Source: Hellea sp. (GTDB lineage Bacteria > Pseudomonadota > Alphaproteobacteria > Caulobacterales > Maricaulaceae). From it: a stretch of DNA of 49,421 bases. Where the stretch lies: NCBI GenBank assembly GCA_020627655.1, contig JAHDGM010000017.1, forward strand, positions 1-49,421, read 5' to 3'. Shown here piece after piece: positions 9,719 to 47,087 of this stretch; within the stretch, counting starts at the first letter, position 1; every line of letters starts with the position of its first letter. A model generated the notes under the pieces. That model saw only the letters and a program-made list of their open reading frames with translations, ran no database searches and had not been told where the DNA came from. The position numbers and the translations under genes are program-made.

Positions 9719-11368
9719 ATGATACGGTTCTTGTCAAATTTTATGCTTAGTGGCCTGATTTTGTGCGCTTTGCTGTTTTTTGCGCCGTTTTCAGCGGCCC
9801 AGACCGAAGAAGCTGCAGCTGCGCAACAGATGCAAATCGAAATGCAAAGTGAGGTGCCAACCGCACCAGCGACTACACCAGAAATGGCGGTCTCATTACC
9901 GGAAAATATTTCCGCTAAGGACGTTGATTTGTTAGATCCTGATATTGTAGCGGCATTAGAAGCCCGCGAAGCTGCAGATAAGGCGATTATTGACGCGATT
10001 TTAAAGCAGCGCGCTCAGCAAGATAACGCCACTAAAAGTTCGAAGGCCGAAGATAAACCGGCTACTGCACTTGCATTAAGCCCTGATGCGATAAAGGCAA
10101 GTGCAGAGGCCATAGTTGAAACCGTTATTGGCTGGCTTAAAAGTCCGAAATTTTTAGCGCAGCTTGGCGCCATTATCCTGGCGGTTTTCCTGTCCCCCAT
10201 TATTGCCGGGATGCTGAGAAAGCGGTTGTTCTTTTTTAGAGATCCTCCTGCTGAGGGTGTTCGCTTAAAGATTATTCGGGATTATGTGTATAGAGCGAGG
10301 AATTTCCTACGCGCTATAATGCTTGTTTTATTACTGGCGTTGTTTGCCGTTATTTTGAAAGCCATTTCTAATTTTGGCGAAGACTGGCTTGTCAAACTCG
10401 CGCAAGGTGTTGCGCTGGTTTTCTTATTATATAAGGCCATTAAAGAGTTTGTTCCAAACGACTTGTTTCGCAAACTTGCCATGTGGACGATCATTCCCGT
10501 CGCATTATTGGCAGTCTTTGGTTATCACGATGATCTTGGTGCCTTCTTAAGCGGTACAACAATCGTGCCAATGGGGGATACGCCGATTACGGCCATGACG
10601 TTAATTCGTCTGGCTATATTTGGAGGTCTGTTCTTCTGGCTCGGTAATTTATCTAATGCCAAAGGTCAGGATGCAATCAGATCTCAGGAAAGCCTGGATA
10701 TCTCAACAAGAGAAGTCGTCGCTAAACTCTTTCAAATTATTTTATTTGTGATCATTGTAATTCTTGTCATGAGTTTTGCCGGAATTCCATTATCCGGTCT
10801 GGTCATGATTATGTCTGCTATCGGTCTTGGTATTGGACTTGGTTTGCAACCGGTCGCCGCCAATTTTGTTTCGGGTCTTATAATCCTGTTTGATAGATCT
10901 GTGCGTAAGGGCGATTTCATCGTACTACCTGACGGTCAGGAAGGTTATGTGGAGGCGATCAATATGCGCTCAACAACTGTCGAAACAACAGACGGCAAAG
11001 ACATCATGGTACCAAATACGACCTTTATCGATAATACTTACGAGAACTGGACGCATAAGGATCCGGCGCAGCGTTATGAGGTTTATTTCACTGTGTCCTA
11101 TGACACTGATATTGATCAGCTTGAAGATATCCTGATACCTGAAATTTCGAATTACCCCAAAGTTCTCATGGAGCCGGAAGAACCGGATTTGGAACTCCGG
11201 GAGTTTGGGGAATATGGAATTAAATTTGCGATAGAATTTTGGGTTTCAGGTATTGATGATGGTGAAAACAAATTCACATCCGATTTGAATTACACGGTTT
11301 GGCGCGCGCTAAAGAAACACGGCATTGTCATGCCGCTGCCGCAGCGTGAAATTAGAACGATTAAATAA
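9719..11368 (+). CDS. Large MscS-family mechanosensitive channel
   Basis: The 549-residue protein has an N-terminal signal peptide ending near SAAQ. A periplasmic Ala/Glu/Gln-rich segment of about 110 residues follows, then several transmembrane helices from about residue 145. The MscS core is C-terminal: the pore-helix region [38 protein letters not shown] (about 365-400) and the beta domain with [23 protein letters not shown]. Such channels open under membrane tension and release solutes during hypo-osmotic shock. GGGGGAAAT directly before the ATG is a good ribosome site. An isomerase-like gene follows one base after the stop. Two shorter MscS paralogues are found at 25607-27378. Confidence 0.93.
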
Positions 11369-11970: not shown

Positions 11971-13833
<1,863 letters not shown>

Positions 13834-13841
13834 ATTTATAC

Positions 13842-14387
13842 CTAGTTTTGGAAATCTGTACCCGGAAGCGCGACGGGTTCATTCATTTCAAAATAATCCC
13901 GGGTTCCAAATCCAAATGTACCTGCAAAAATATTTACAGGGAAACTTTGCACAAGAGTGTTCATCTGGCGAACTGCACCATTATAAAACCGCCGCGCATA
14001 TTCGATTTTATTTTCAGTATCTGAAAGCTCATTCTGCAAATCCAGAAAATTTTCATTTGCGCGAAGGTCCGGGTAGTCTTCAGCAACTGCCAGTAAGCGT
14101 TTCAGCGGAGCCCCCATGGCGCTCTCAGCGCTGGCCCGCTCGGAAACGCTGGCTGCATTCATCGCTTGACCTCGTTTGGTTGTTATGTCCTCAAAAAGCT
14201 TCCGTTCATGACCCGCATAACCTTTCACCGTTTCGACTAATCTGGGGATAAGATCACTACGGCGTTTGAGCTGCACTTCTATATCGGACCAACCATTATC
14301 AACCAGCTGCCGTGTGGCTACCAGCCTATTGTAAATCCATATGACTGTGCCTGCGAACAGGATCAGAATAATGACGATAACGCCCAT
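13842..14387 (-). CDS. lemA: LemA family protein
   Basis: The 181-residue product has an N-terminal membrane anchor (VIVIILILFAGTVIWIYNRLV) followed by the LemA helical domain. The hallmark segment RLVATRQLVDNGWSDIEVQLKRRSDLIPRLVETVKGYAGHE is evident, as is RFYNGAVRQMNTLVQSFPVNIFAG near the C-terminus. The ATG at 14387 was chosen for its GAGGGAGA ribosome site; an upstream in-frame start would overlap the preceding gene. LemA proteins face the periplasm or cytoplasm on a single helix and have no established biochemical role. The conserved neighbour is DUF2207. Confidence 0.93.
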   Translation of the reverse strand: MGVIVIILILFAGTVIWIYNRLVATRQLVDNGWSDIEVQLKRRSDLIPRLVETVKGYAGHERKLFEDITTKRGQAMNAASVSERASAESAMGAPLKRLLAVAEDYPDLRANENFLDLQNELSDTENKIEYARRFYNGAVRQMNTLVQSFPVNIFAGTFGFGTRDYFEMNEPVALPGTDFQN

Positions 14388-14397
14388 AATATCTCCC

Positions 14398-15213
14398 TCA
14401 ATCATCCTTAATATAGGGATGATTGCGCATAAATGGTAGTTTCAGCGCCCAGAAAAACTCCGCAGGGGCCTCTGTTTGATAGCCGGATAACCCGATTCTC
14501 ATGTTTTCATGCCCATCTTGGGGTTGAGGCCTGTAGGTTTTGAAAATGTAGTCCCACCACGGCAAAAAGAAACCATAATTACTGTCAGTCTCATTATGCC
14601 GGACGGAATGATGAATACGGTGCATGTCGGGCGTCACAATGATCAGACGCAGGATTTTATCGAGCCTGTTGGGTATTTTTAAATTACTATGATTAAACAT
14701 GGCTGATCCGTTTAGAATAATTTCAAAACATAAAACCGCTATGACTGCAGGCCCAAGCAGCAAAACAATCAGAACTTTGAACAGCATGGACAGTAAAATT
14801 TCGATCGGATGAAACCGTAATGCAGTTGTTGTGTCTATATCCCTGTCACTGTGATGAACTTTATGCAGGCGCCAGAGCAGGGGAATTTTATGGGTTATAA
14901 CGTGTTGTCCGTAGACGGCGAGATCCAGCAATATAACGGCCACAGTAACTTCAAGCCATATTGGCCATATGATCAGGTTTAAAGCGCCCCAACCCTTTTG
15001 CGCCGCGAGATAGGCCGTGCTTATGGCAGTCACCGAACCCATCAGGCGGAGGCTTAGCGTATTTACCAGGGTTATACCGAAATTTGTCGACCATCGGCGC
15101 AATCTGGGCTGCATGCGGCCGCGCCTGGGCCACAAAGCTTCGGCTATCATCAGAACACACAAAAGCCCGGCAAAAACACCTAATCGCCACCACATTTCCG
15201 AACTGTTTACCAT
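14398..15213 (-). CDS. Fatty acid hydroxylase / sterol desaturase superfamily membrane protein
   Basis: The 271-residue integral membrane protein carries the histidine clusters that bind the di-iron centre in this superfamily: HVITH, HKVHH with a nearby RFHP, NHSN, and HRIHH followed by NYG. About four hydrophobic segments surround them. Members hydroxylate or desaturate membrane lipids, carotenoids or sterol-like molecules; the actual substrate cannot be read from the sequence. The stop lies 10 bases before the LemA start, so the gene appears to lead a LemA/DUF2207 unit. Nothing else for lipid modification is near. Confidence 0.9.
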   Translation of the reverse strand: MVNSSEMWWRLGVFAGLLCVLMIAEALWPRRGRMQPRLRRWSTNFGITLVNTLSLRLMGSVTAISTAYLAAQKGWGALNLIIWPIWLEVTVAVILLDLAVYGQHVITHKIPLLWRLHKVHHSDRDIDTTTALRFHPIEILLSMLFKVLIVLLLGPAVIAVLCFEIILNGSAMFNHSNLKIPNRLDKILRLIIVTPDMHRIHHSVRHNETDSNYGFFLPWWDYIFKTYRPQPQDGHENMRIGLSGYQTEAPAEFFWALKLPFMRNHPYIKDD

Positions 15214-27429: not shown

Positions 27430-27543
27430 TCAATTTTCCAGAGCGTTTTGCACTAAATTTATGAACTTTTCCTTTGAAGTATAGACATGCGAATTAAAAA
27501 TAGAGTCAGGACGATCAAATGAAAAATCATAGCGCTTTTTCAT
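27430..27543 (-). CDS. Short reading frame overlapping the end of the 779-aa gene
   Basis: An ATG inside the last codons of the preceding gene opens a 37-residue frame (MKKRYDFSFDRPDSIF..., ending NLVQNALEN) that stops at 27430. Its composition looks protein-like, and it sits exactly where a toxin's immunity gene would be expected. It could be a tiny partner gene, the start of a truncated immunity gene, or the true C-terminus of the 779-aa protein reached by a frameshift. No good ribosome site precedes it. Confidence 0.35.
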   Translation of the reverse strand: MKKRYDFSFDRPDSIFNSHVYTSKEKFINLVQNALEN

Positions 27544-29866
27544 ATATGTAAAACACCCAATCTTTGGGTGGTTTAGTTCGATTTTTTGCCTTTGTCAGTC
27601 TCGCCGGGATGTTTCTTGGATAAAGAGTCGGAGCCCTAAAAACCATATTATTTTGCTCGTAAATTTCTCTCATAAAAGGATGCACGATTTTTCGAAAGAC
27701 GTGCTCAGGTAATCCGAGTTCACGAACCAGAACCTGATAATGTGCCAAATATATTTCATAGGGTGTGAACAAACCTTCAAACCCGTAGGGGATATACTTT
27801 TTCATCAAACGTGTTTTAGTTAGATGGTTGTAATAAAAGCCTTCCCAGCCAACTTGTTTTAACAGTTTTAGAACATGAGCATTTTTAGGAACAGCAATAG
27901 AATGCCAATCATGTATACTCCAGGGATCCTCAAAGTAGCCTCGGAACCTCTTCTCAAAAACATGGTCTATTTCAAAAACATGGCCATGTCCGTTCGTAAT
28001 TGTTTTAAGATTGCTGTATGTATCGCTTAATTGATGTGTCGAGAAGTTATCTTCGTAATGTTTGGCGGCAGCCTTGACTTCATCCAGAGTAACAGGCTTT
28101 CGAGTTCGTTTCGGGTTCTCAAGCACGCCGTTGATGATCTTGACTGCTCCTTTACCCAGCAAGCTTTGTAAGCGGGCTTTATAGCGCCCATTCGTTTGGC
28201 GTTTAAGCCAATCTAGCACATTTTTTCTACCGCCTTTGTTTCGATATGCTTGATAACCCTGTTTCAACAGAGGATCGGATAAATCATCGGCAAGGGGAGT
28301 GATAACTTTATAAACGGCAGCTTCTTGTATTGCCTTTTCATAGAATGACCAGAATTCTGTCTCAACTTGAGAGACCGCTCCCACACTTAGATCATCCCCA
28401 TTTTTGAGTGCGAGGTTTACATTAACTTGGAGCTTCCCAGCTAATTCTGTTGGTAGGTCGCCAAAACTTTCAATATTTCCCGGACTCACATGCCGCATTG
28501 TGTCGGCAATAATGGGAGATGGTAAAATTGCAGTATCTAAAATTTGCTCGACATGAGGGGTTACAACTTCCGCCATGTTGTCGGATATTTTTTGGCCGGA
28601 TCGGGTCTCTACGGCCTTAACCAGGTTTTGCGCGAGCGTGTTCTGTTCCCCGCCCGATAAGTTTTTCATGGCTGCGACTGTTACTGGTGAAGCTTGTTCT
28701 TTTATTTCATGTTTAATAGCATCCGTCATGTGGCCAGAAGAATCTGTAACCTTTACTCCAGGGGAAAATTTTTCAGCAAGGGATGCTATAGTTTTCGCAT
28801 TTTCTGCGCCTTCAAAAAATGGCCCTGAAACCAGACTCGCAGCCGTGAGTGAAAACTCAAACTTACCTGCTGAATTACCCAGCAAGTCTTTTTGTAAAGT
28901 TGCAATTGCTAATAGTTCTGCGAAGTCAATGATTTCGCCGACTACGGGAGTAAAGGAAAGGGCTAAGTAAATAACTATCGGAATTAATGTGACGAAATCC
29001 CCATAAGGAGAATGGGTTAAGGTAAGGCTGTTTGTGATGTTGTTTTTCTGATTGAAAAAGAGTTCGTCAGGGAGATTGATAGGGTCAATGCCATCATCAT
29101 CATATACGGTTAATTCGTGGCGGAAAAAAGGATCACCCATTATAAAACTACGTTTAAACCCGCTTACTTTTGTATTACTGGACCGGAGAATTTTTACGGC
29201 GGTATGGGTAGCAACATAAGTATCAAAATACCCTGTTTCATCAATATAAGATTCGCCATAAGTTTCTATTGCCACATCTGTATAGACTGGCTCAAACCCG
29301 GTTGAATCTTTTGCTTCTATCGTGACCTGCCAATGACCTGAAGCATGAGAAACCGCAATTCCAGTAGGGAGCCGCGTTACCGTAATCCAATCATTTATTT
29401 CTGTATGTTCAGGACTGTCTAATATCTCATTATAACGTCCGATATACAACGAAGATAATAGGGATTGATAATCAAGACGGTCTCCCGTTTGAGGTATAGT
29501 CATAAGGGAATTTGTTCGAATTACAAATGGCCTGACTATTTTGGAGTAATCATTCCAGTTCGGTGGATAGTGACATGACGAACAATCTTCAGGTGCTGCT
29601 TCAAAAACAAATTTTAAGGTCACATCCGGTGCAGCTACAATGATGAGCGTAGGTATATCTCCTTCTTTTATCGGTGTGATGACCGTCCAGGCCAAAGGAA
29701 GGGTATCACGAAGAAGTAAGTCGGGAGCTGACCATTCAATGAGATCTGTGTAAAATGGAAAACCATCGTGATCCAGTATTCCAGTATTTACTTTTAGTTT
29801 ACCCAGATTTTCGTTTGGGTAAAAGATCTCATGAATTATTCCTATACCATCACTAGCGCGCGCCAT
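27527..29866 (-). CDS. Large uncharacterised protein with pretoxin-like segment and HNH-like C-terminus
   Basis: The 779-residue protein has no signal peptide. The first 300 residues are polar and beta-looking. A hydrophobic segment follows (LIPIVIYLALSFTPVVGEIIDFAELLAI), which resembles the 'PVVGE..D..E' pretoxin region of polymorphic toxins. A long helical region leads to a C-terminal part (from about residue 629) with EIDHVFEKRF, HDWHS and PKNAH, a His/Asp/Asn arrangement like that of HNH-type nucleases. An effector role is inference. Its ATG lies six bases after the stop of the 786-aa gene, so the two form an operon. CSSCH at 95-99 mimics a haem-binding motif but is probably chance. Confidence 0.75.
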   Translation of the reverse strand: MARASDGIGIIHEIFYPNENLGKLKVNTGILDHDGFPFYTDLIEWSAPDLLLRDTLPLAWTVITPIKEGDIPTLIIVAAPDVTLKFVFEAAPEDCSSCHYPPNWNDYSKIVRPFVIRTNSLMTIPQTGDRLDYQSLLSSLYIGRYNEILDSPEHTEINDWITVTRLPTGIAVSHASGHWQVTIEAKDSTGFEPVYTDVAIETYGESYIDETGYFDTYVATHTAVKILRSSNTKVSGFKRSFIMGDPFFRHELTVYDDDGIDPINLPDELFFNQKNNITNSLTLTHSPYGDFVTLIPIVIYLALSFTPVVGEIIDFAELLAIATLQKDLLGNSAGKFEFSLTAASLVSGPFFEGAENAKTIASLAEKFSPGVKVTDSSGHMTDAIKHEIKEQASPVTVAAMKNLSGGEQNTLAQNLVKAVETRSGQKISDNMAEVVTPHVEQILDTAILPSPIIADTMRHVSPGNIESFGDLPTELAGKLQVNVNLALKNGDDLSVGAVSQVETEFWSFYEKAIQEAAVYKVITPLADDLSDPLLKQGYQAYRNKGGRKNVLDWLKRQTNGRYKARLQSLLGKGAVKIINGVLENPKRTRKPVTLDEVKAAAKHYEDNFSTHQLSDTYSNLKTITNGHGHVFEIDHVFEKRFRGYFEDPWSIHDWHSIAVPKNAHVLKLLKQVGWEGFYYNHLTKTRLMKKYIPYGFEGLFTPYEIYLAHYQVLVRELGLPEHVFRKIVHPFMREIYEQNNMVFRAPTLYPRNIPARLTKAKNRTKPPKDWVFYIYEKAL

Positions 29867-29872
29867 CTCGTC

Positions 29873-32233
29873 TTAACTTACAAGAGATGCATCTGGGTCT
29901 AGAACAATGAGATTTGTTGGAGTCTGATATTTCCATTTTTCGCCATATGGGTCTGCCTGTGCAAGGGCAACGTCTTTGGATTCTGCAATTTCTTGAACAA
30001 TAGGCACGTAAAGGGGTGATCCAATAACGGGGGTATCTCGACCGCCCCATACCAATCCAGTTGCTAAGTAAAACATGATTGCTTTTTCAAATCCGGGCCG
30101 GACAGGAATTTGAACTCGTGAAGAGCCAGCTTTCAGGAAAGATTCGAATATATTGTCATTGTCGGACAATCTGAGTTTATCGAGCCAGTCTTTTTTATCG
30201 CCCCAAAAATATGGGTAAAATAGATAAGTCATTTGTTCCCATTCAAAACATTGTTCAAAGAAGGAAATATCAGGAGCAACTCTAAAGGCTTCGTCGATAT
30301 CAATTTCATGTACTGTCTGATTGGGGTCAAGTTCTAGAGGATCGTTTACAGCGTCATAGTTTTCAAAGGATTGTTGAGTTAGAAGTGTAAGGGCTCCTCT
30401 TTTGAGCTCTTCTTTTTCTATAGTCCTTTTTTTATCGGGGTGGATAGCATTCTGATAAGAGCTGTTTTGATTTTGTAATAAGGCCTGCTCGGCATTGTAC
30501 GCTGCCCATTCTTGCTGACTTGCGATGCGTAATTTATCAAAAGTTTCAAGTTGCCAATTGACTAAGGCTTCTGAAGTTCGCGTGCATTTAAATTCAAGGT
30601 GAATGGCGGCTGCGGTAACGTCAAAGCAATAAACCGCGATGTCGACTGTTTCGCGGATATTATCGATACTGCCAGAGGCATGCCCATTTTTAAGAATAAG
30701 GCGACGATTCCCAGCTATCACATCCAAACGGGGTTCTCGATCATTATTGTCTTTGAGGAAGGTGCCTTTTGATGATTCACCTGTTACATGGGTGACCATA
30801 TACCCTTCCGGGATAGGTTGTGACGCTGTATGCGTCTTAACGTTATAATCATTGCCGCTTAATTTTCCGTGGTAATCTTCAGCTATCTCTATTGTCGTAT
30901 CAATATATATGATCGCGTCTGGGGGAGGGCTTACATCCGTTGCCTTATAATCTCTTACAAGGTTTAAATATGTGCGTGAGGTTATTGAGCTAGGTGATAA
31001 ATTAAATGTCTTTGGTTCGCTCAAGACGGCTTGTTTCTGGGATGCTGAACTATGGGCTTGTAGATAATTTGCGGCGGGTTCTGGGACTATAAACTCAAAT
31101 AATAATCGCTTGCCATAGTTTAGTATTTGCGCTTCCCATTCTTGAGTTACGTAACGGTATACACCGACAATATGATCTGCGTCTTCATTTGTGTTTGTGA
31201 ATTCATGTGCATTGATTTCTTCGATCTCTTTGACAGTCGTAATGCTGGTTGAATCCTTGCGGCGTTCATATAGCTTGGATATTGATTTATCGACCATTTC
31301 CTGGGCAAAGTTACTGGAAACAGATTTAGCTTCTTCGCGGGAAGTATCATATGAAAAGTCCGCGCTAGAATCCACGCTAAGAACCGGGCCGTAACTCGCA
31401 GAAATATTGACACCAGTAGATAAAGCCATGGCAGAGGAAATAGTTTCGTCCATTTGTGACGATAACTCGCTTTTCTCGGTGGTTTGCAAGTCTCTTGTGG
31501 ATTCTTCGATTTTCTCAGTTTCTGTAGTTATAACTTGAGTTGTCCGGTCCAAAAGGCGATGATTGCGCTTGCGAGTTTCGCTAGCCATAACATTTTCAAT
31601 ATGGGCTATTTCATCGCGTTCATATGATAACCATTCGTCTTTAACAATTAGCAGGTCGCCTATACCTGCTGGTCGTATGTCATGAGGGTTTGCCGATAAG
31701 GCAGACACAGAAGGTAAAATTACAGGGGCTGACAGAAGTTTTTTCGAAACGGGTTTGTTTTGTACTAACTGACTCATAATGCCAATTGTTCGCGCAGCTA
31801 ATTGAAGCTTCATACGCATTTCTTTTGAAGCTTTGTTTGAATAGGTCGCGGCTTGAATTGCTTCTGAGACCCAAATGGCTATTCCAAGGGGGTTTTTGAA
31901 TAGTTTTGCGTCTTCAGCAGAAATGGTTTTTTGAAATGCCTTCAGGTCTGCAGGTTTTATTTCGTCTGATTGGTTGCTTGAAGTTTCTTTAGAGAAAAAT
32001 TTGTGACCATTTACTAAGATTTCTAAAACTTTGGCCTTTGCTCCATAGGTTGGAAATTGTTTACCTGTGACATACTCGTTGCAAATGCTTCGTAATTGAT
32101 CTTTTGTAGGGGCATTTTGAACCTGATTTAAAAATTCACTCTTCAATGGTATGGATAAATCGGTTTTATGCGTAACATCCAAGTTACGTGCTGATCTTAC
32201 TGCCATTATCCTCATTAGACTATTTGAAATCAT
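29873..32233 (-). CDS. Large uncharacterised protein, first gene of a two-gene operon
   Basis: The 786-residue protein has no signal peptide and no clear membrane helix. Its central part contains IGDLLIVKDEWLSYERDEIAHIENVMASETRKRNHRLLD, followed by a Thr/Glu/Ser-rich coiled stretch (TTETEKIEESTRDLQTTEKSEL) and AEEDADHIVGVYRYVTQEWEAQILNYGKRLLFEF-like text (actual start NEDADHIVG). I have the impression this block recurs in large unannotated bacterial proteins, but I cannot name the family. The C-terminal 150 residues (DISFFEQCFEWEQMTYLFYPYFWGDK onwards) are aromatic-rich. The ATG at 32233 follows GGAGG by five bases. A Crp-like site lies upstream. Confidence 0.75.
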   Translation of the reverse strand: MISNSLMRIMAVRSARNLDVTHKTDLSIPLKSEFLNQVQNAPTKDQLRSICNEYVTGKQFPTYGAKAKVLEILVNGHKFFSKETSSNQSDEIKPADLKAFQKTISAEDAKLFKNPLGIAIWVSEAIQAATYSNKASKEMRMKLQLAARTIGIMSQLVQNKPVSKKLLSAPVILPSVSALSANPHDIRPAGIGDLLIVKDEWLSYERDEIAHIENVMASETRKRNHRLLDRTTQVITTETEKIEESTRDLQTTEKSELSSQMDETISSAMALSTGVNISASYGPVLSVDSSADFSYDTSREEAKSVSSNFAQEMVDKSISKLYERRKDSTSITTVKEIEEINAHEFTNTNEDADHIVGVYRYVTQEWEAQILNYGKRLLFEFIVPEPAANYLQAHSSASQKQAVLSEPKTFNLSPSSITSRTYLNLVRDYKATDVSPPPDAIIYIDTTIEIAEDYHGKLSGNDYNVKTHTASQPIPEGYMVTHVTGESSKGTFLKDNNDREPRLDVIAGNRRLILKNGHASGSIDNIRETVDIAVYCFDVTAAAIHLEFKCTRTSEALVNWQLETFDKLRIASQQEWAAYNAEQALLQNQNSSYQNAIHPDKKRTIEKEELKRGALTLLTQQSFENYDAVNDPLELDPNQTVHEIDIDEAFRVAPDISFFEQCFEWEQMTYLFYPYFWGDKKDWLDKLRLSDNDNIFESFLKAGSSRVQIPVRPGFEKAIMFYLATGLVWGGRDTPVIGSPLYVPIVQEIAESKDVALAQADPYGEKWKYQTPTNLIVLDPDASLVS

Positions 32234-32258
32234 TTGCGCCTCCGTGTTGACGGCACAA

Positions 32259-32299
32259 GCTATAGACATGATAATTTGATTGCTGTGACTTTCATCACG
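32259..32299 (-). promoter_or_regulatory. Crp-like site and -10 upstream of the two-gene operon
   Basis: TGTGACTTTCATCACG (32284-32299) matches the Crp consensus TGTGA-N6-TCACA at 9 of 10 half-site positions. On the minus strand a TATAGC -10 candidate lies at 32259-32264, giving a start near 32252, about 40 bases from the site centre. That is close to the -41.5 position of class II Crp activation. Binding is inference. Confidence 0.5.
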
Positions 32300-43291: not shown

Positions 43292-43317
43292 ACGCGTAAT
43301 GGTTGCTTTTTACGCGT
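43292..43317 (-). terminator. Terminator of the 43337-46986 operon
   Basis: A perfect 8-bp inverted repeat (ACGCGTAA / TTACGCGT) around a 10-base loop. On the minus strand TTGTTTTT follows, so it fits an intrinsic terminator just beyond the coiled-coil gene. The same bases could alternatively act as an operator for the XRE gene. Confidence 0.55.
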
Positions 43318-43336
43318 ATAGAGGGTGTTGAGGGGC

Positions 43337-44806
43337 TTAAAATCCCCCGCCAGTACGAAACCCGCCGGAACGGCCACCGGAGGACCTTGGCGTGCGCGGG
43401 AGCCTTGTGCGCGGCATACGCGGAATAGATGTTCGAATGCGCGGAGAGCTGCGACGTCTGTGACCCGAGCTTCGCGGGAGCCTCAGGCCTTCTGTCCAGT
43501 CAATACCACCAAAATCACTATCAGAATATCGTCTGACTGTTCGTTGTGCCCGTTCAATCTGACGCCATAAACTATTGCCATCCATAGCGCCGGCAAGAAC
43601 CTGAACTAGCAAGGCCCCTAGAAGGTTTCCATCAAAGACGGATGAGGGAGCATCATAGCGGCGAGATTTGAAACGGCGCCTTATGTCTTCCAAATCACGA
43701 AGCGTTCGCTCATATTTACGGATAAGTTTTTTGGCTTCCTTCTGGTCGTCTTCCATATCGTCAGCCGCTCGGGCCAAATTAAGGATTTCTTCAATGGCAT
43801 GATCATCGGCACGGCTCGTGGTTTGGGCCGCAAGGCGTTTAAGGTCACGAATTTTCACGCGCTGCATGGCGTCTGATAAAATGCTGACGGCTTCCTGATA
43901 TGGCCCGCTTTCCCCTGCAGCCAAAGCATGGTGCTCATCTCTTAGCTCGCCATATTCACGTTCTGCAGTTGCGATTTGTTCGTCAATTTTATCAAGTTTT
44001 TTCTGAGCATCTAATGAGGCTTTGTGGCGAGCGGTAACGCCCTCGCGCTCTAGAATATCAGCTTCCAGTTTTTGCAGGGCCGCTCGTTCTTCAAGCACGC
44101 TGGCTTCGAGGGAGTTGACGTGGTTTTCCAGTCGGGTTGGAATTGCTTGCAGGCGGCGATAATTTTCTGCGGCCTTGCGATATCCAGAAATAGACGCGAC
44201 CCAGCTATCCAGCCATTTGGTTAAAAACCAACCCTTGGCTTGTTTTGTACCATATTTGCGGTTTTGCAAATATGTGAAAAAGGGGTCTTTTCGGTAAGGC
44301 ATGCCTTTTTCGGTTTCATCCTGCCGTGCAAGATCAAGTTTTTCGTTGGCGCGAATGACTGTGCTTTCTGCGGTTTCAACCCGGTCCAAAACCTCTTGAT
44401 AATGAAGATCTTTTAAGATTTTGACTTCAGCCTGAGCGGCGGCTTTGTCATAGCTATCAATTGCCTTTTGCACATCTTGTTCAGCCTTGCGGCGGTCGGC
44501 TTCAAGTTTTTCGATTTTGACTTGCTGCTTATCGATTTTAGCCAAGTTCTTTTGCTGAATTTTCTGGTGGTCGATTAAAAGCTTTTCGGCTTTACGGTCA
44601 ACATAACCCAGCTCCCCGCCGTCACCGTCTTCCAGCAATCCCAAGCGCTCTTTGGCTATGTTGTCATAGGCTGCCGACTGCTGCCGCCGTAAATCCAAAA
44701 GCGCCTGTGCAGTACGGTGGGGGAGCGCAGAAGCTTCACTGACCGACTGCCGGGCTTTTGCAATGGCCGTGTCTATATCATGGAGTGTTTGAAGTCCGCT
44801 TTTCAT
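43337..44806 (-). CDS. Long coiled-coil protein with basic R/S/P/G tail
   Basis: The 489-residue cytoplasmic-looking protein is dominated by coiled-coil sequence (for example DHQKIQQKNLAKIDKQQVKIEKLEADRRKAEQDVQKAIDSY and LEASVLEERAALQKLEADILERE). It ends in an Arg/Ser/Pro-rich tail of about 45 residues finishing RSGGFRTGGGF. No signal peptide or enzyme motif is seen. It is the last gene of a three-gene operon, one base after the DUF6384-like gene. Its function is unknown; a scaffolding or envelope-contact role fits the shape only. Confidence 0.8.
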   Translation of the reverse strand: MKSGLQTLHDIDTAIAKARQSVSEASALPHRTAQALLDLRRQQSAAYDNIAKERLGLLEDGDGGELGYVDRKAEKLLIDHQKIQQKNLAKIDKQQVKIEKLEADRRKAEQDVQKAIDSYDKAAAQAEVKILKDLHYQEVLDRVETAESTVIRANEKLDLARQDETEKGMPYRKDPFFTYLQNRKYGTKQAKGWFLTKWLDSWVASISGYRKAAENYRRLQAIPTRLENHVNSLEASVLEERAALQKLEADILEREGVTARHKASLDAQKKLDKIDEQIATAEREYGELRDEHHALAAGESGPYQEAVSILSDAMQRVKIRDLKRLAAQTTSRADDHAIEEILNLARAADDMEDDQKEAKKLIRKYERTLRDLEDIRRRFKSRRYDAPSSVFDGNLLGALLVQVLAGAMDGNSLWRQIERAQRTVRRYSDSDFGGIDWTEGLRLPRSSGHRRRSSPRIRTSIPRMPRTRLPRTPRSSGGRSGGFRTGGGF

Positions 44807-44807
44807 T

Positions 44808-45800
44808 TTACCAGTCCAGTATCAATCCACCGGAGGTCTCGATGGAGTATTCAGGTGATAGGTAGCCGCGTTTTTTTTCTCCGATGGTCGCATTTTGAAT
44901 AATCTGATCATCTTGTTTATCCGCGGCAACACGATTGAAAACGGACTGGGGTACGCGGACACCCCAGATATTGGTCCGGCGGGATTTTTGATCTTCCTCG
45001 CTGTTAATCAAAACTTTGGCCAGTTCCCCCGATGGAGTTACGCCCTCGACAATCAGATAATAATTGCGAACTTCAGTGCCGCCTTCGTCATTGATCCGAA
45101 AGACTCCACTATATTCATTGGGACGGGACACAATCCTCAAAGTGTAACGCTGTGACAGATCGCTTGAGAGCTGTTTAAGATCGGCTGTATATTTTTCTGC
45201 TGCCTTTATGTTTTTCTCGCTAATGGCAGTTTCGCCGAGTCCGTGAAGATCATTGATACGCGCTTTTAAATCATCGGTGGCGGCAAGTTTCAGCGCTTCC
45301 GCTTGGCTTTCATTGAGCTGCGTTGGCAGTGTCTCGCCCAGAAGCTTTTCAATCCGTTTGGATTCAACTTTCTGCGGACGTTCAAATCCCAGATAATTAA
45401 TGCAATAGGCGGCGCCTGATACGAAGAAGACTGTGTATAATAAAGGCAGCCATTTTTTGCGGTTAATATAAAATCTGGCCAGTGATGTCGAAAAACCCTT
45501 CTTAGGCGGCTCATAGACGAAACGTTGTTCTTCAAGAGCCATAACTCCATCCATCAACACTTCGTCCGGGACGTTGATGCCCTGGGCCTTATAGATACTG
45601 CGCAGGCGCTCAATAAGGGCTTGGCGACGATCTTCTACAGCCAGATCTTTTTCGATCATCATATGTTCGTGGCGCAGAGTATCAACCACGTCCATGGCGA
45701 GCATGACGTCATCCAGTTTTTCTTCGCTTTGAACGGATTTAGCGGCAGCCTGGGCGTCAGTTTCAGCCTGATGCTTTAATATATCTTCCGTATTTACCAT
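44808..45800 (-). CDS. DUF6384-like single-pass membrane protein
   Basis: The 330-residue protein has an N-terminal helical block (EEKLDDVMLAMDVVDTLRHEHMMIEKDLAVEDRRQALIERLRSIYKAQGINVPDEVLMDGVMALEEQRFVY). I associate this block with the DUF6384 family, without being able to check. A single membrane helix (WLPLLYTVFFVSGAAYCINYL) follows, then a coiled region and a beta-looking C-terminal domain ending SIETSGGLILDW. I chose the ATG at 45800, which follows the upstream stop; the ribosome site is weak, suggesting coupling. It is the middle gene of the operon. Confidence 0.78.
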   Translation of the reverse strand: MVNTEDILKHQAETDAQAAAKSVQSEEKLDDVMLAMDVVDTLRHEHMMIEKDLAVEDRRQALIERLRSIYKAQGINVPDEVLMDGVMALEEQRFVYEPPKKGFSTSLARFYINRKKWLPLLYTVFFVSGAAYCINYLGFERPQKVESKRIEKLLGETLPTQLNESQAEALKLAATDDLKARINDLHGLGETAISEKNIKAAEKYTADLKQLSSDLSQRYTLRIVSRPNEYSGVFRINDEGGTEVRNYYLIVEGVTPSGELAKVLINSEEDQKSRRTNIWGVRVPQSVFNRVAADKQDDQIIQNATIGEKKRGYLSPEYSIETSGGLILDW

Positions 45801-45813
45801 CAGGTTGGCAAAC

Positions 45814-46986
45814 CTAGTCGAGCAGAAGCGTGCTTGACGCACCGGTTTCGGCTAAGCGTGCCAAGCGGCGCTTACCGTCTTCAACAATGACCCGGATTTC
45901 CTTGGAATTTTCAGTCGCCAGTGTCCGCATTTCTGCAATAATTTCCTGACTGCGTTCCTGATAGGCAATGACAGAGTCGAGTAGTTTCTTAACAGCGGCA
46001 GCTGACACGGTTGGTCCGTAGCCGGCTTTGACAGCGGCTTCCTGGACTTTGTCCCCAACTTCGGAAAGAACTTCGAGGCTGTCATTCACACCCTTTTTCA
46101 TAGCTTCAAGTGTTTGAGTGCTCTCATGCAGACCATGCATACCTGTAAGGGTAGCGCTCAGCGCTGTCAGGACAACTTCGTTCGTGCTGAAAAATGAGAT
46201 GCTCTGGGCATAGACCCTTTCTTTGGCGTTTTTCGTTTGCACTAGGCGCGCCATAACAACTTCGGAGGTGTTATACCCAACGGTCAGATTATCTGATAAA
46301 TCTTTAGCGACTTGATAGCGTTTATCCGCTGTTTGCAGGGCGCGTAATTTTTCGTCCCGGTCAAGTTCAAGGGTCGCGCGTTCGGTTTGATCGTCGCCTG
46401 TATAGCTCTCAATGTTTGTGACAGCTTTGCCAACGGCTTCCTTGGCGCTTTCCAGCTCACCTTCAGCTTTGTTCAGGACGTCAAATGACAATACTTCGGC
46501 GTTTTTCATGGCACCGCGAAAGTCCATATACGCTTCAAGAATTAATTGCTCGCGCTCAATCTGGTTTGAGGTTTCTTCAGTTACGTCAGCATAAATGCCT
46601 TTAATTTTCTCGAACCTGTCAGCAATGGTGCCGCGGCGCATTTTCATCCAAATGTTAGAGATTTTTTCCATAGTTCCGATTTTGCCGTCAGCATATTGAT
46701 CGACCAGAGCTTTGGAGTCGTCCCGTATAGAATTAAAGGCGTTGGTAATACCTTCATAACGGTCAGCGACCTTAATGCCAGACACTTGTTCACGTACTAC
46801 TTCGTTGAAATAAGAGGCTTGATTAAGGGTGCGGGCTATGGCCGTAACTTTATCCCGATCAAGGTCAGAAATTTGATCCAGAAGCGTGACAATCGGAACA
46901 GGATCACTTTTACCCTTCAAAAGACCCAGCTCGCGCAGGCCTCCCAGTGCTTTGTCCAGATATTGTAATGTGCTGAGTTTAGCCAT
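45814..46986 (-). CDS. TelA-like / coiled-coil protein, first gene of a three-gene operon
   Basis: The 390-residue helical protein resembles, in style, TelA-type 'toxic anion resistance' proteins and proteins loosely labelled 'cell surface protein' in Rhodobacterales. It is all helix with long heptad-like stretches (KAEGELESAKEAVGKAVTNIESYTGDD, ALEATQTL-type text) and FFSTNEVVLTALSATLTGMHGLHESTQTLEAMKKGVNDSLEVL. No signal peptide or membrane segment is visible. The ATG at 46986 follows GGAGGG, and a near-consensus promoter lies directly upstream. The family assignment is tentative. Confidence 0.78.
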   Translation of the reverse strand: MAKLSTLQYLDKALGGLRELGLLKGKSDPVPIVTLLDQISDLDRDKVTAIARTLNQASYFNEVVREQVSGIKVADRYEGITNAFNSIRDDSKALVDQYADGKIGTMEKISNIWMKMRRGTIADRFEKIKGIYADVTEETSNQIEREQLILEAYMDFRGAMKNAEVLSFDVLNKAEGELESAKEAVGKAVTNIESYTGDDQTERATLELDRDEKLRALQTADKRYQVAKDLSDNLTVGYNTSEVVMARLVQTKNAKERVYAQSISFFSTNEVVLTALSATLTGMHGLHESTQTLEAMKKGVNDSLEVLSEVGDKVQEAAVKAGYGPTVSAAAVKKLLDSVIAYQERSQEIIAEMRTLATENSKEIRVIVEDGKRRLARLAETGASSTLLLD

Positions 46987-47000
46987 TTCACCCTCCATAT

Positions 47001-47029
47001 ATTATAGTGAGATTTATATAGGGGGTGAA
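47001..47029 (-). promoter_or_regulatory. Near-consensus promoter of the three-gene operon
   Basis: On the minus strand, TTCACC (47024-47029) and a perfect TATAAT (47001-47006) are separated by 17 bp. The expected start falls near 46995, at the GGAGGG ribosome site (46991-46996), so the leader is very short. Confidence 0.65.
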
Positions 47030-47087
47030 GCCGGACGGGGCAATCAGGAATAGTGAAATTGGCTGTATAATTACAAAGACTGTATTA

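Follow-up and report, generated by a model that had tools for sequence, protein, structure and literature searches.

In a 49,421-nucleotide stretch of DNA from Hellea sp. (GenBank assembly GCA_020627655.1, contig JAHDGM010000017.1; the whole stretch is called the window here), three adjacent genes, A, B, and C, likely constitute a genuine functional unit, and their products probably form one membrane-linked machine. The three genes co-occur in genomes, keep their order, and have correlated trees; B and C also occur without A. Our tentative reading is that the trio is a single accessory, horizontally moving inner-membrane module that would most plausibly aid the integrity of the cell envelope under stress. 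A first-pass annotation, made from the letters of the window alone, had described a dedicated three-gene operon encoding a TelA-like protein, a DUF6384-like membrane protein, and a coiled-coil protein with a basic tail, and had suggested a membrane-anchored filament or a scaffold for stress responses; several of its claims are revised below.

Results

Genes A, B, and C co-occur across genomes

The co-occurrence of A, B, and C exceeds chance. When 99 genomes of the family of the window (its own genome included) were searched, A was found in 17, B in 19, and C in the same 19, and all 17 genomes holding A were among the 19 holding B; one extra C match, in G492 (expectation value (E) 8e-4, 70 of 484 positions), was at chance level. 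The Fisher p values were 3e-17 for A with B and 2e-19 for B with C, figures that are only indicative because the genomes are related. In one genome (G008), fragments of A and B lie on different contigs. Across a draw of 398 genomes of the phylum, each gene was present in two genomes, and these two (G296 and the window's own) were identical for A, B, and C; two further partial C matches (E 5e-4 and 7e-4) were at chance level. A draw of 332 genomes of the class contained B in two, the window's own genome and G580; the latter has two copies of B and carries two whole copies of the trio on different contigs (L099 and L100). B was also found in 12 of 41 relatives, the window's own genome included.

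The trees of the three genes also agree with one another. Tree distances of A, B, and C, compared over 34 loci, are correlated with r values of 0.92–0.93, and none of 1000 permutations gave a value as high; shared host ancestry contributes to this correlation. The mean tree distances were 1.04 for A, 2.11 for B, and 2.54 for C, so that A evolves about half as fast as B and less than half as fast as C. The earlier impression that the three families are conserved together is thus borne out by the family and phylum draws, the trees, and the comparison of loci that follows.

B and C look like a core to which A is added

To compare gene order, 38 loci were used, most of them found via B, and they are not an unbiased sample. 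B and C are neighbors in 37 of these loci, including that of phage phiR1-37, where C was assigned by position. The exception is G040, in which a 204-amino acid (aa) open reading frame (ORF) without a Pfam match lies between them. A is present in 35 of the 38 loci and absent from G002, G003, and the record Dfl-JY45. Both G002 and G003 (completeness 77% and 84%) have B and C, and the 13-kb stretches around these genes show no A; in G002 a pabB-type gene stands directly before B, at the place of A. In another genome (G004, the same as L002), a 564-aa ORF with prealbumin-like and DUF7507 domains parts A from B (L002 7278-8972). Apart from this case, the gap between A and B is 327 nucleotides (nt) in L103 and at most 159 nt elsewhere, as measured to the start of the profile match. 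Because B and C are present without A in Dfl-JY45 and in two congeners of the window, G002 and G003, this pair looks like the core of the system and A like an optional part. Based on these results, the proposal of a dedicated unit is supported, but a strict three-gene operon does not describe the several members in which A is missing or parted from B by another gene.

Plasmids and phage records carry the genes

When plasmid records were searched by tblastn with the window proteins, A was found in 11, B in 8, and C in 7 of them; a profile search then found A, B, and C in this order in all 11 plasmid records that hold A. Seven of these plasmids are from Pseudomonas, and Bradyrhizobium, Microvirga, Methylorubrum, and Rhizobium contribute one each; Methylorubrum extorquens AM1, a harmless laboratory strain, has the trio on its megaplasmid. 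Where the plasmids are annotated, A is named "merozoite surface protein 3b" or "cell surface protein," or is labeled hypothetical.

The jumbo Yersinia phage phiR1-37 has the same gene order. Its g190 is A (profile score 447 bits) and its g191 is B (104 bits with the profile, 92 bits with Pfam DUF6384). The score of g192 with the C profile is only 7.7 bits (E 0.017), and hhalign gave a probability of 95% over 142 columns; g192 was assigned to C by this weak similarity, its position, and its tail, which ends in FSSSDSF. The phage record contains an annotated terminator between g190 and g191 and another after g192, an arrangement that fits a B-C core. In NC_016163, g190 to g192 are without the note "phage structural protein" that several of their neighbors bear, and term searches of the main texts of PMC4848604 and PMC13030884 found no naming of these three genes with respect to infection timing. 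In the A tree (support 0.995) and in the C tree (0.92), the phage copy clusters with three copies from Pseudomonas megaplasmids, L024, L025, and L093; its place in the B tree, among other Pseudomonas plasmid copies, is weakly supported (0.74).

The record Dolichospermum phage Dfl-JY45 (209 kb), known as a phage by its record name, contains B (163 bits, Pfam) and C (127 bits), and a search of the whole record at E up to 10 gave no A. Close behind B and C in this record is an SMC-like DUF3584 gene (653 bits; L095 8583-12284). A search of a phage collection with g191 leads to Dfl-JY45, and the same collection searched with g190 gave, beyond phiR1-37, only one match, at E 0.5. In scans of viral contigs, two A queries found no relative and g190 found only phiR1-37 itself. 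A search of BFVD with B gave a single match at E 0.001 or better, G4KKD0, which is probably g191 because both are 440 aa long.

Gene calls, promoter, and terminator in the window

The ORF calls confirmed three ORFs on one strand in the region 43337-47029, where the first-pass annotation had placed them; the strand was corrected to minus for all three genes, and the starts of A and B were revised (Table 1). Their tight spacing is also confirmed, as 13 nt separate the stop codon of A from the ATG of B, and 1 nt separates the stop codon of B from the ATG of C. In the program-made ORF list, A begins at 46998, and the start codon given for B is a GTG (45842) that overlaps A. The start of A is most likely 46986, which is preceded by GGAGGGTGAA, and for B we prefer the ATG at 45800 because its closest relatives begin near there. 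The gene upstream of the trio is of the pabB type, with Pfam matches to chorismate-binding and class IV aminotransferase domains; downstream are a Cro/C1-type regulator and the end of a tad pilus cluster.

Table 1. Positions of the three genes and of putative signals around them in the window
Feature	Position	Strand	Description
Gene A	45814..46986	minus	390 aa; predicted all-helical; slowest-evolving of the three; no library family
Gene B	44808..45800	minus	330 aa; DUF6384 (PF19911); one predicted membrane segment, ~119-140; C-terminal beta domain; last residue Trp
Gene C	43337..44806	minus	489 aa; coiled coil; conserved center; hydrophobic stretch 390-408; Gly-rich tail with end GGFRTGGGF
Promoter-like site TTGCCC-N17-TATATA	47015..47043	minus	TTGC(2)N(16-17)TATA pattern, common to congeners
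Promoter-like site TTCACC-N17-TATAAT	47001..47029	minus	promoter of the first-pass annotation; 10 of 12 consensus matches
Terminator-like hairpin	43293..43318	minus	8-bp stem, 10-nt loop, -8.6 kcal/mol; followed by TTTGTTTTT

The near-consensus promoter proposed earlier for the trio, TTCACC-N17-TATAAT, exists, but the site shared among congeners is a different one. Merely 14 nt lie between the -10 box of the proposed site and the start of A, and its only counterpart among the six other congeneric loci is a weak one in G001 (CTAACT-N16-AATAAT, 8 of 12 matches); a TATATT site upstream of A in G009 is part of the TTGC(2)N(16-17)TATA pattern. The latter pattern occurs within 110 nt upstream of A in six of seven congeneric loci (G008 is the exception) and in none of 15 loci of other genera. 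In a shuffling control, sets of eight sequences had on average 0.03 with the site, and six were reached in none of 2000 sets; the pattern was picked after the loci had been inspected, and this figure is therefore only indicative. At the other end of the unit, the hairpin and the T-rich run 3' of C agree with the earlier claim of a terminator and could plausibly act as one. An automated terminator scan of the window did not pick up this hairpin because its loop is 10 nt long.

Features of the B protein

B matches Pfam DUF6384 with 364.2 bits (cut-off 25) over profile positions 3-308 of 308, and its description as a DUF6384-like single-pass membrane protein is supported. An AlphaFold2 model of B, made from 26 sequences, has a mean predicted local distance difference test score (pLDDT) of 84 and shows, from the N terminus, several helices, a long helix (114-172) with the hydrophobic segment inside it, three further helices, and a beta domain (219-309). 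In 36 of 38 loci, the 19-residue segment of B with the highest hydropathy starts between positions 94 and 112 of its matched part. When Lys and Arg were counted over 15 residues on each side of this segment, an excess was present on the N-terminal side, which favors an N-in orientation, in 27 of 37 usable loci, the two sides were equal in five, and the opposite was true in five (L030 was excluded, its hydropathy peak being elsewhere). The last residue of B is Trp in 36 of 40 proteins, the exceptions being L104, L025, L026, and L110. A search of PDB folds with the B model gave no match at E 0.001, and the strongest rows, mostly designed bundles, are confined to the three-helix part (145-217); a PDB sequence search likewise gave a designed bundle as its best match (7jzm, E 0.002, residues 147-200).

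Features of the C and A proteins

Neither A nor C matches a family above chance level in Pfam, NCBIfam, PADLOC, or PHROGs. C has a hydrophobic stretch that is clear in many copies. The last residue of C is Phe in 34 of 39 complete proteins (exceptions L026, L091, L092, L109, and L110; L042 was left out of the count because its C runs off the locus). All five of these exceptions, and three of the four for B, are plasmid copies. In Methylorubrum extorquens AM1, B and C have other end residues. The net charge of the C tail is +8 to +15 in 24 of 34 members, namely the genome-collection loci, gammaproteobacterial Kangiella included, and -1 to -6 in the other 10, all of which are plasmid or phage loci. 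What C proteins share more widely is an end rich in Gly and Ser, in most cases with Phe as the last residue, and basic charge is not family-wide. Thus, the earlier account of a 489-aa coiled coil with an R/S/P/G-rich tail is correct for the window, but the basic charge of that tail cannot be generalized. In a PDB sequence search with C, residues 64-157 gave the best match, to a chain of peptidase M23 (8tzk_E, E 4e-4); a designed protein and tektins came next, and we take these matches as shared coiled-coil character.

The structure model of A is all-helical and of low confidence (mean pLDDT 63, with residues 278-365 below 50), and the best result of a PDB sequence search with A was only E 0.34. 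No 19-residue stretch of hydropathy above 1.4 is present in any of 34 A proteins (the maximum in the window protein is 1.12, at ~264), and no signal sequence of A was seen by eye.

Neighboring genes and other observations in the window

Among the neighbors of the trio that were inspected, recurrence is found only within clades. On two Pseudomonas megaplasmids, StiP proteases are encoded upstream of the trio (L025 2264-3331 and L093 5396-6466), with a PELOTA domain in L025 and dcd downstream. An MscS-type channel gene lies directly behind C in G001 (L036 9629-10486), and in two genomes that belong to another genus (L033 and L108) the gene immediately preceding A is of the CorA type. The window itself encodes a 549-aa MscS-type channel (9719-11368, plus strand) and two adjoining ORFs of 779 and 798 aa (27527-32269, minus strand) without a match in Pfam (E 1e-5) or NCBIfam (E 0.001).

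Discussion

From the features of the three proteins, we infer an assembly in which the products of A, B, and C would work together at the inner membrane. B would most likely cross the membrane a single time, so that the helical N-terminal part faces the cytoplasm and the conserved beta domain, mostly with Trp as its last residue, faces the periplasm. C, as a cytoplasmic coiled coil, would dock to the membrane via its short hydrophobic stretch, and to B, and would display its flexible Gly/Ser tail, mostly with the terminal Phe. A, a strongly constrained helical protein, would join B and C as a coat or regulatory part, and could therefore be lost while B and C stay. Such an assembly would most likely help to preserve the envelope when the cell is stressed, which would also benefit a megaplasmid or a large lytic phage. 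We chose an envelope role because a bitopic B with a conserved, probably periplasmic domain and cytoplasmic helical partners would fit it, and because a trait of this kind would be of use whether it is encoded on a chromosome, on a plasmid, or by a lytic phage.

Several observations weigh against this proposal. The charge rule for B is weak, and the B protein of the window itself is opposite to it (4 versus 5 Lys and Arg residues). The hydrophobic stretch of C is weak in L099, L026, L024, and L093 (0.16 to 0.34), and neither the terminal Trp of B nor the terminal Phe of C is universal. Neighbors of the StiP, MscS, CorA, LD-carboxypeptidase, and YsnF types hint at stress or the envelope, each of them in one clade or once.

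The trio could also be a conflict module, that is, a membrane-linked defense against phages or plasmids or, in phiR1-37, a means of excluding rival phages. We consider this unlikely, yet it deserves the most attention of the alternatives. It would account for the patchy spread (19 of the 99 family genomes, 2 of the 398 from the phylum, and 2 of the 332 from the class, the window's own genome counted each time), for the presence of the trio or of B and C on plasmids and in two phage records, and for the SMC-like gene near B and C in Dfl-JY45. However, PADLOC gave nothing for A and B and only chance-level values for C (E 0.04 and 0.46), Pfam matched no enzymatic domain in A, B, or C, and in the genus of the window the trio adjoins ordinary chromosomal genes such as pabB.

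Two other explanations appear improbable. One is an undescribed trans-envelope machine, assembled on the inner membrane with the helical A as its coat, B as a bitopic sensor, and C as an aromatic-tailed coiled coil, that a jumbo phage would have taken over to control the host envelope in infection. The other is an organizer of replicons or compartments, in which a membrane-anchored coiled-coil scaffold would position large DNA elements or phage structures. The combination of a coiled coil and a membrane anchor, and the large size of some carriers (plasmids of 0.3 to 1.4 Mb, a phage of 262 kb), are in keeping with such an organizer. Against it, many copies in genome contigs are beside metabolic or envelope genes, no replication genes were recognized in the stretches read, and no DNA-binding family was matched in the four libraries.

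That A is a distant TelA, and the trio a unit for resistance to tellurite or cell-envelope antibiotics like XpaC-TelA, is very doubtful. The overall helical make-up of A speaks for it, as does the presence, next to two of the Pseudomonas megaplasmid copies, of StiP, which Pfam names a tellurite-like stress resistance protease. TelA (PF05816) was absent among the Pfam matches of A at E up to 1, the TelA profile scored at best 2.4 bits against 22 A sequences, the A profile scored at best 3.4 bits against 18 TelA sequences, and hhalign comparisons with the 18 TelA sequences gave 3.7% (22-row A alignment) and 4.6% (20-row A alignment). The TelA-like label of the first-pass annotation is not supported. 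There was no TelA match in the window's own genome, hhalign gave nothing for A with C or for C with TelA, neither B nor C had an XpaC-type family among its Pfam matches (E up to 1), and a search for the C-type tail motif in TelA loci found none. These tests lower the case for TelA identity of A, but may leave that for a TelA-like role in envelope stress as it was.

The ClyA-type alpha pore-formers have a hydrophobic head between long helices. It is least probable that A has this fold and acts on the cell's own membrane: in the low-confidence model, proteins that we take to be of the ClyA type lead weakly in a fold search (Foldseek E 3e-3 at best) and fill the first nine rows of a structural re-comparison (Z 11.1-13.0, 243-269 residues aligned), but Z values below ~13 are uninformative for helical bundles, residues 194-199, the predicted tip between its two long helices, are polar, and the hydropathy of A and its lack of a visible signal sequence would also speak against a pore-former.

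The proposed inner-membrane module has partial likenesses among known systems. In the TelA-XpaC system, a helical protein is encoded with a membrane protein, a plan like that of the trio; A is without sequence or profile similarity to TelA. PMC12791056 identifies the TelA-XpaC pair as lmo1967-lmo1966 and links TelA to nisin. The general plan of the trio also resembles a second system, and A and C have no Pfam match to its family at E up to 1; this is PspA-PspB-PspC, in which a helical cytoplasmic protein acts with small membrane partners. LemA pairs with DUF2207/TPM membrane proteins, and this membrane-linked pair is like the trio in having a Gly-rich, aromatic-ended tail; A, B, and C are without a DUF2207 or LemA match, and a low-complexity tail may be convergent. 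One such pair is encoded in the window (11971-14405, minus strand), where a gene that is presumably of the LemA type (NCBIfam MamQ, 93 bits, below the cut-off of 250) is followed by a DUF2207 membrane protein whose Gly-rich tail ends in Trp and is similar in flavor to the tail of C.

The open literature searched, which leaves subscription journals mostly outside, contained no mention of DUF6384, nor of Dfl-JY45 or of "merozoite surface protein 3b" with Pseudomonas, and titles and the beginnings of abstracts gave no description of the trio. Provisionally, then, the trio matches no described system in the libraries and literature searched, which does not imply that its mechanism is known to be new.

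These results bear on a protein family that has been in Pfam without a function. DUF6384 describes B only, of which the window protein is a near full-length member, and none of the libraries searched contains its partners A and C. With the loci described here, DUF6384 gains regular partners, a B-C core, an optional A, and end residues that can be tested. The trio spans chromosome-type contigs, megaplasmids, and a jumbo phage, with two of its three proteins outside all four libraries searched.

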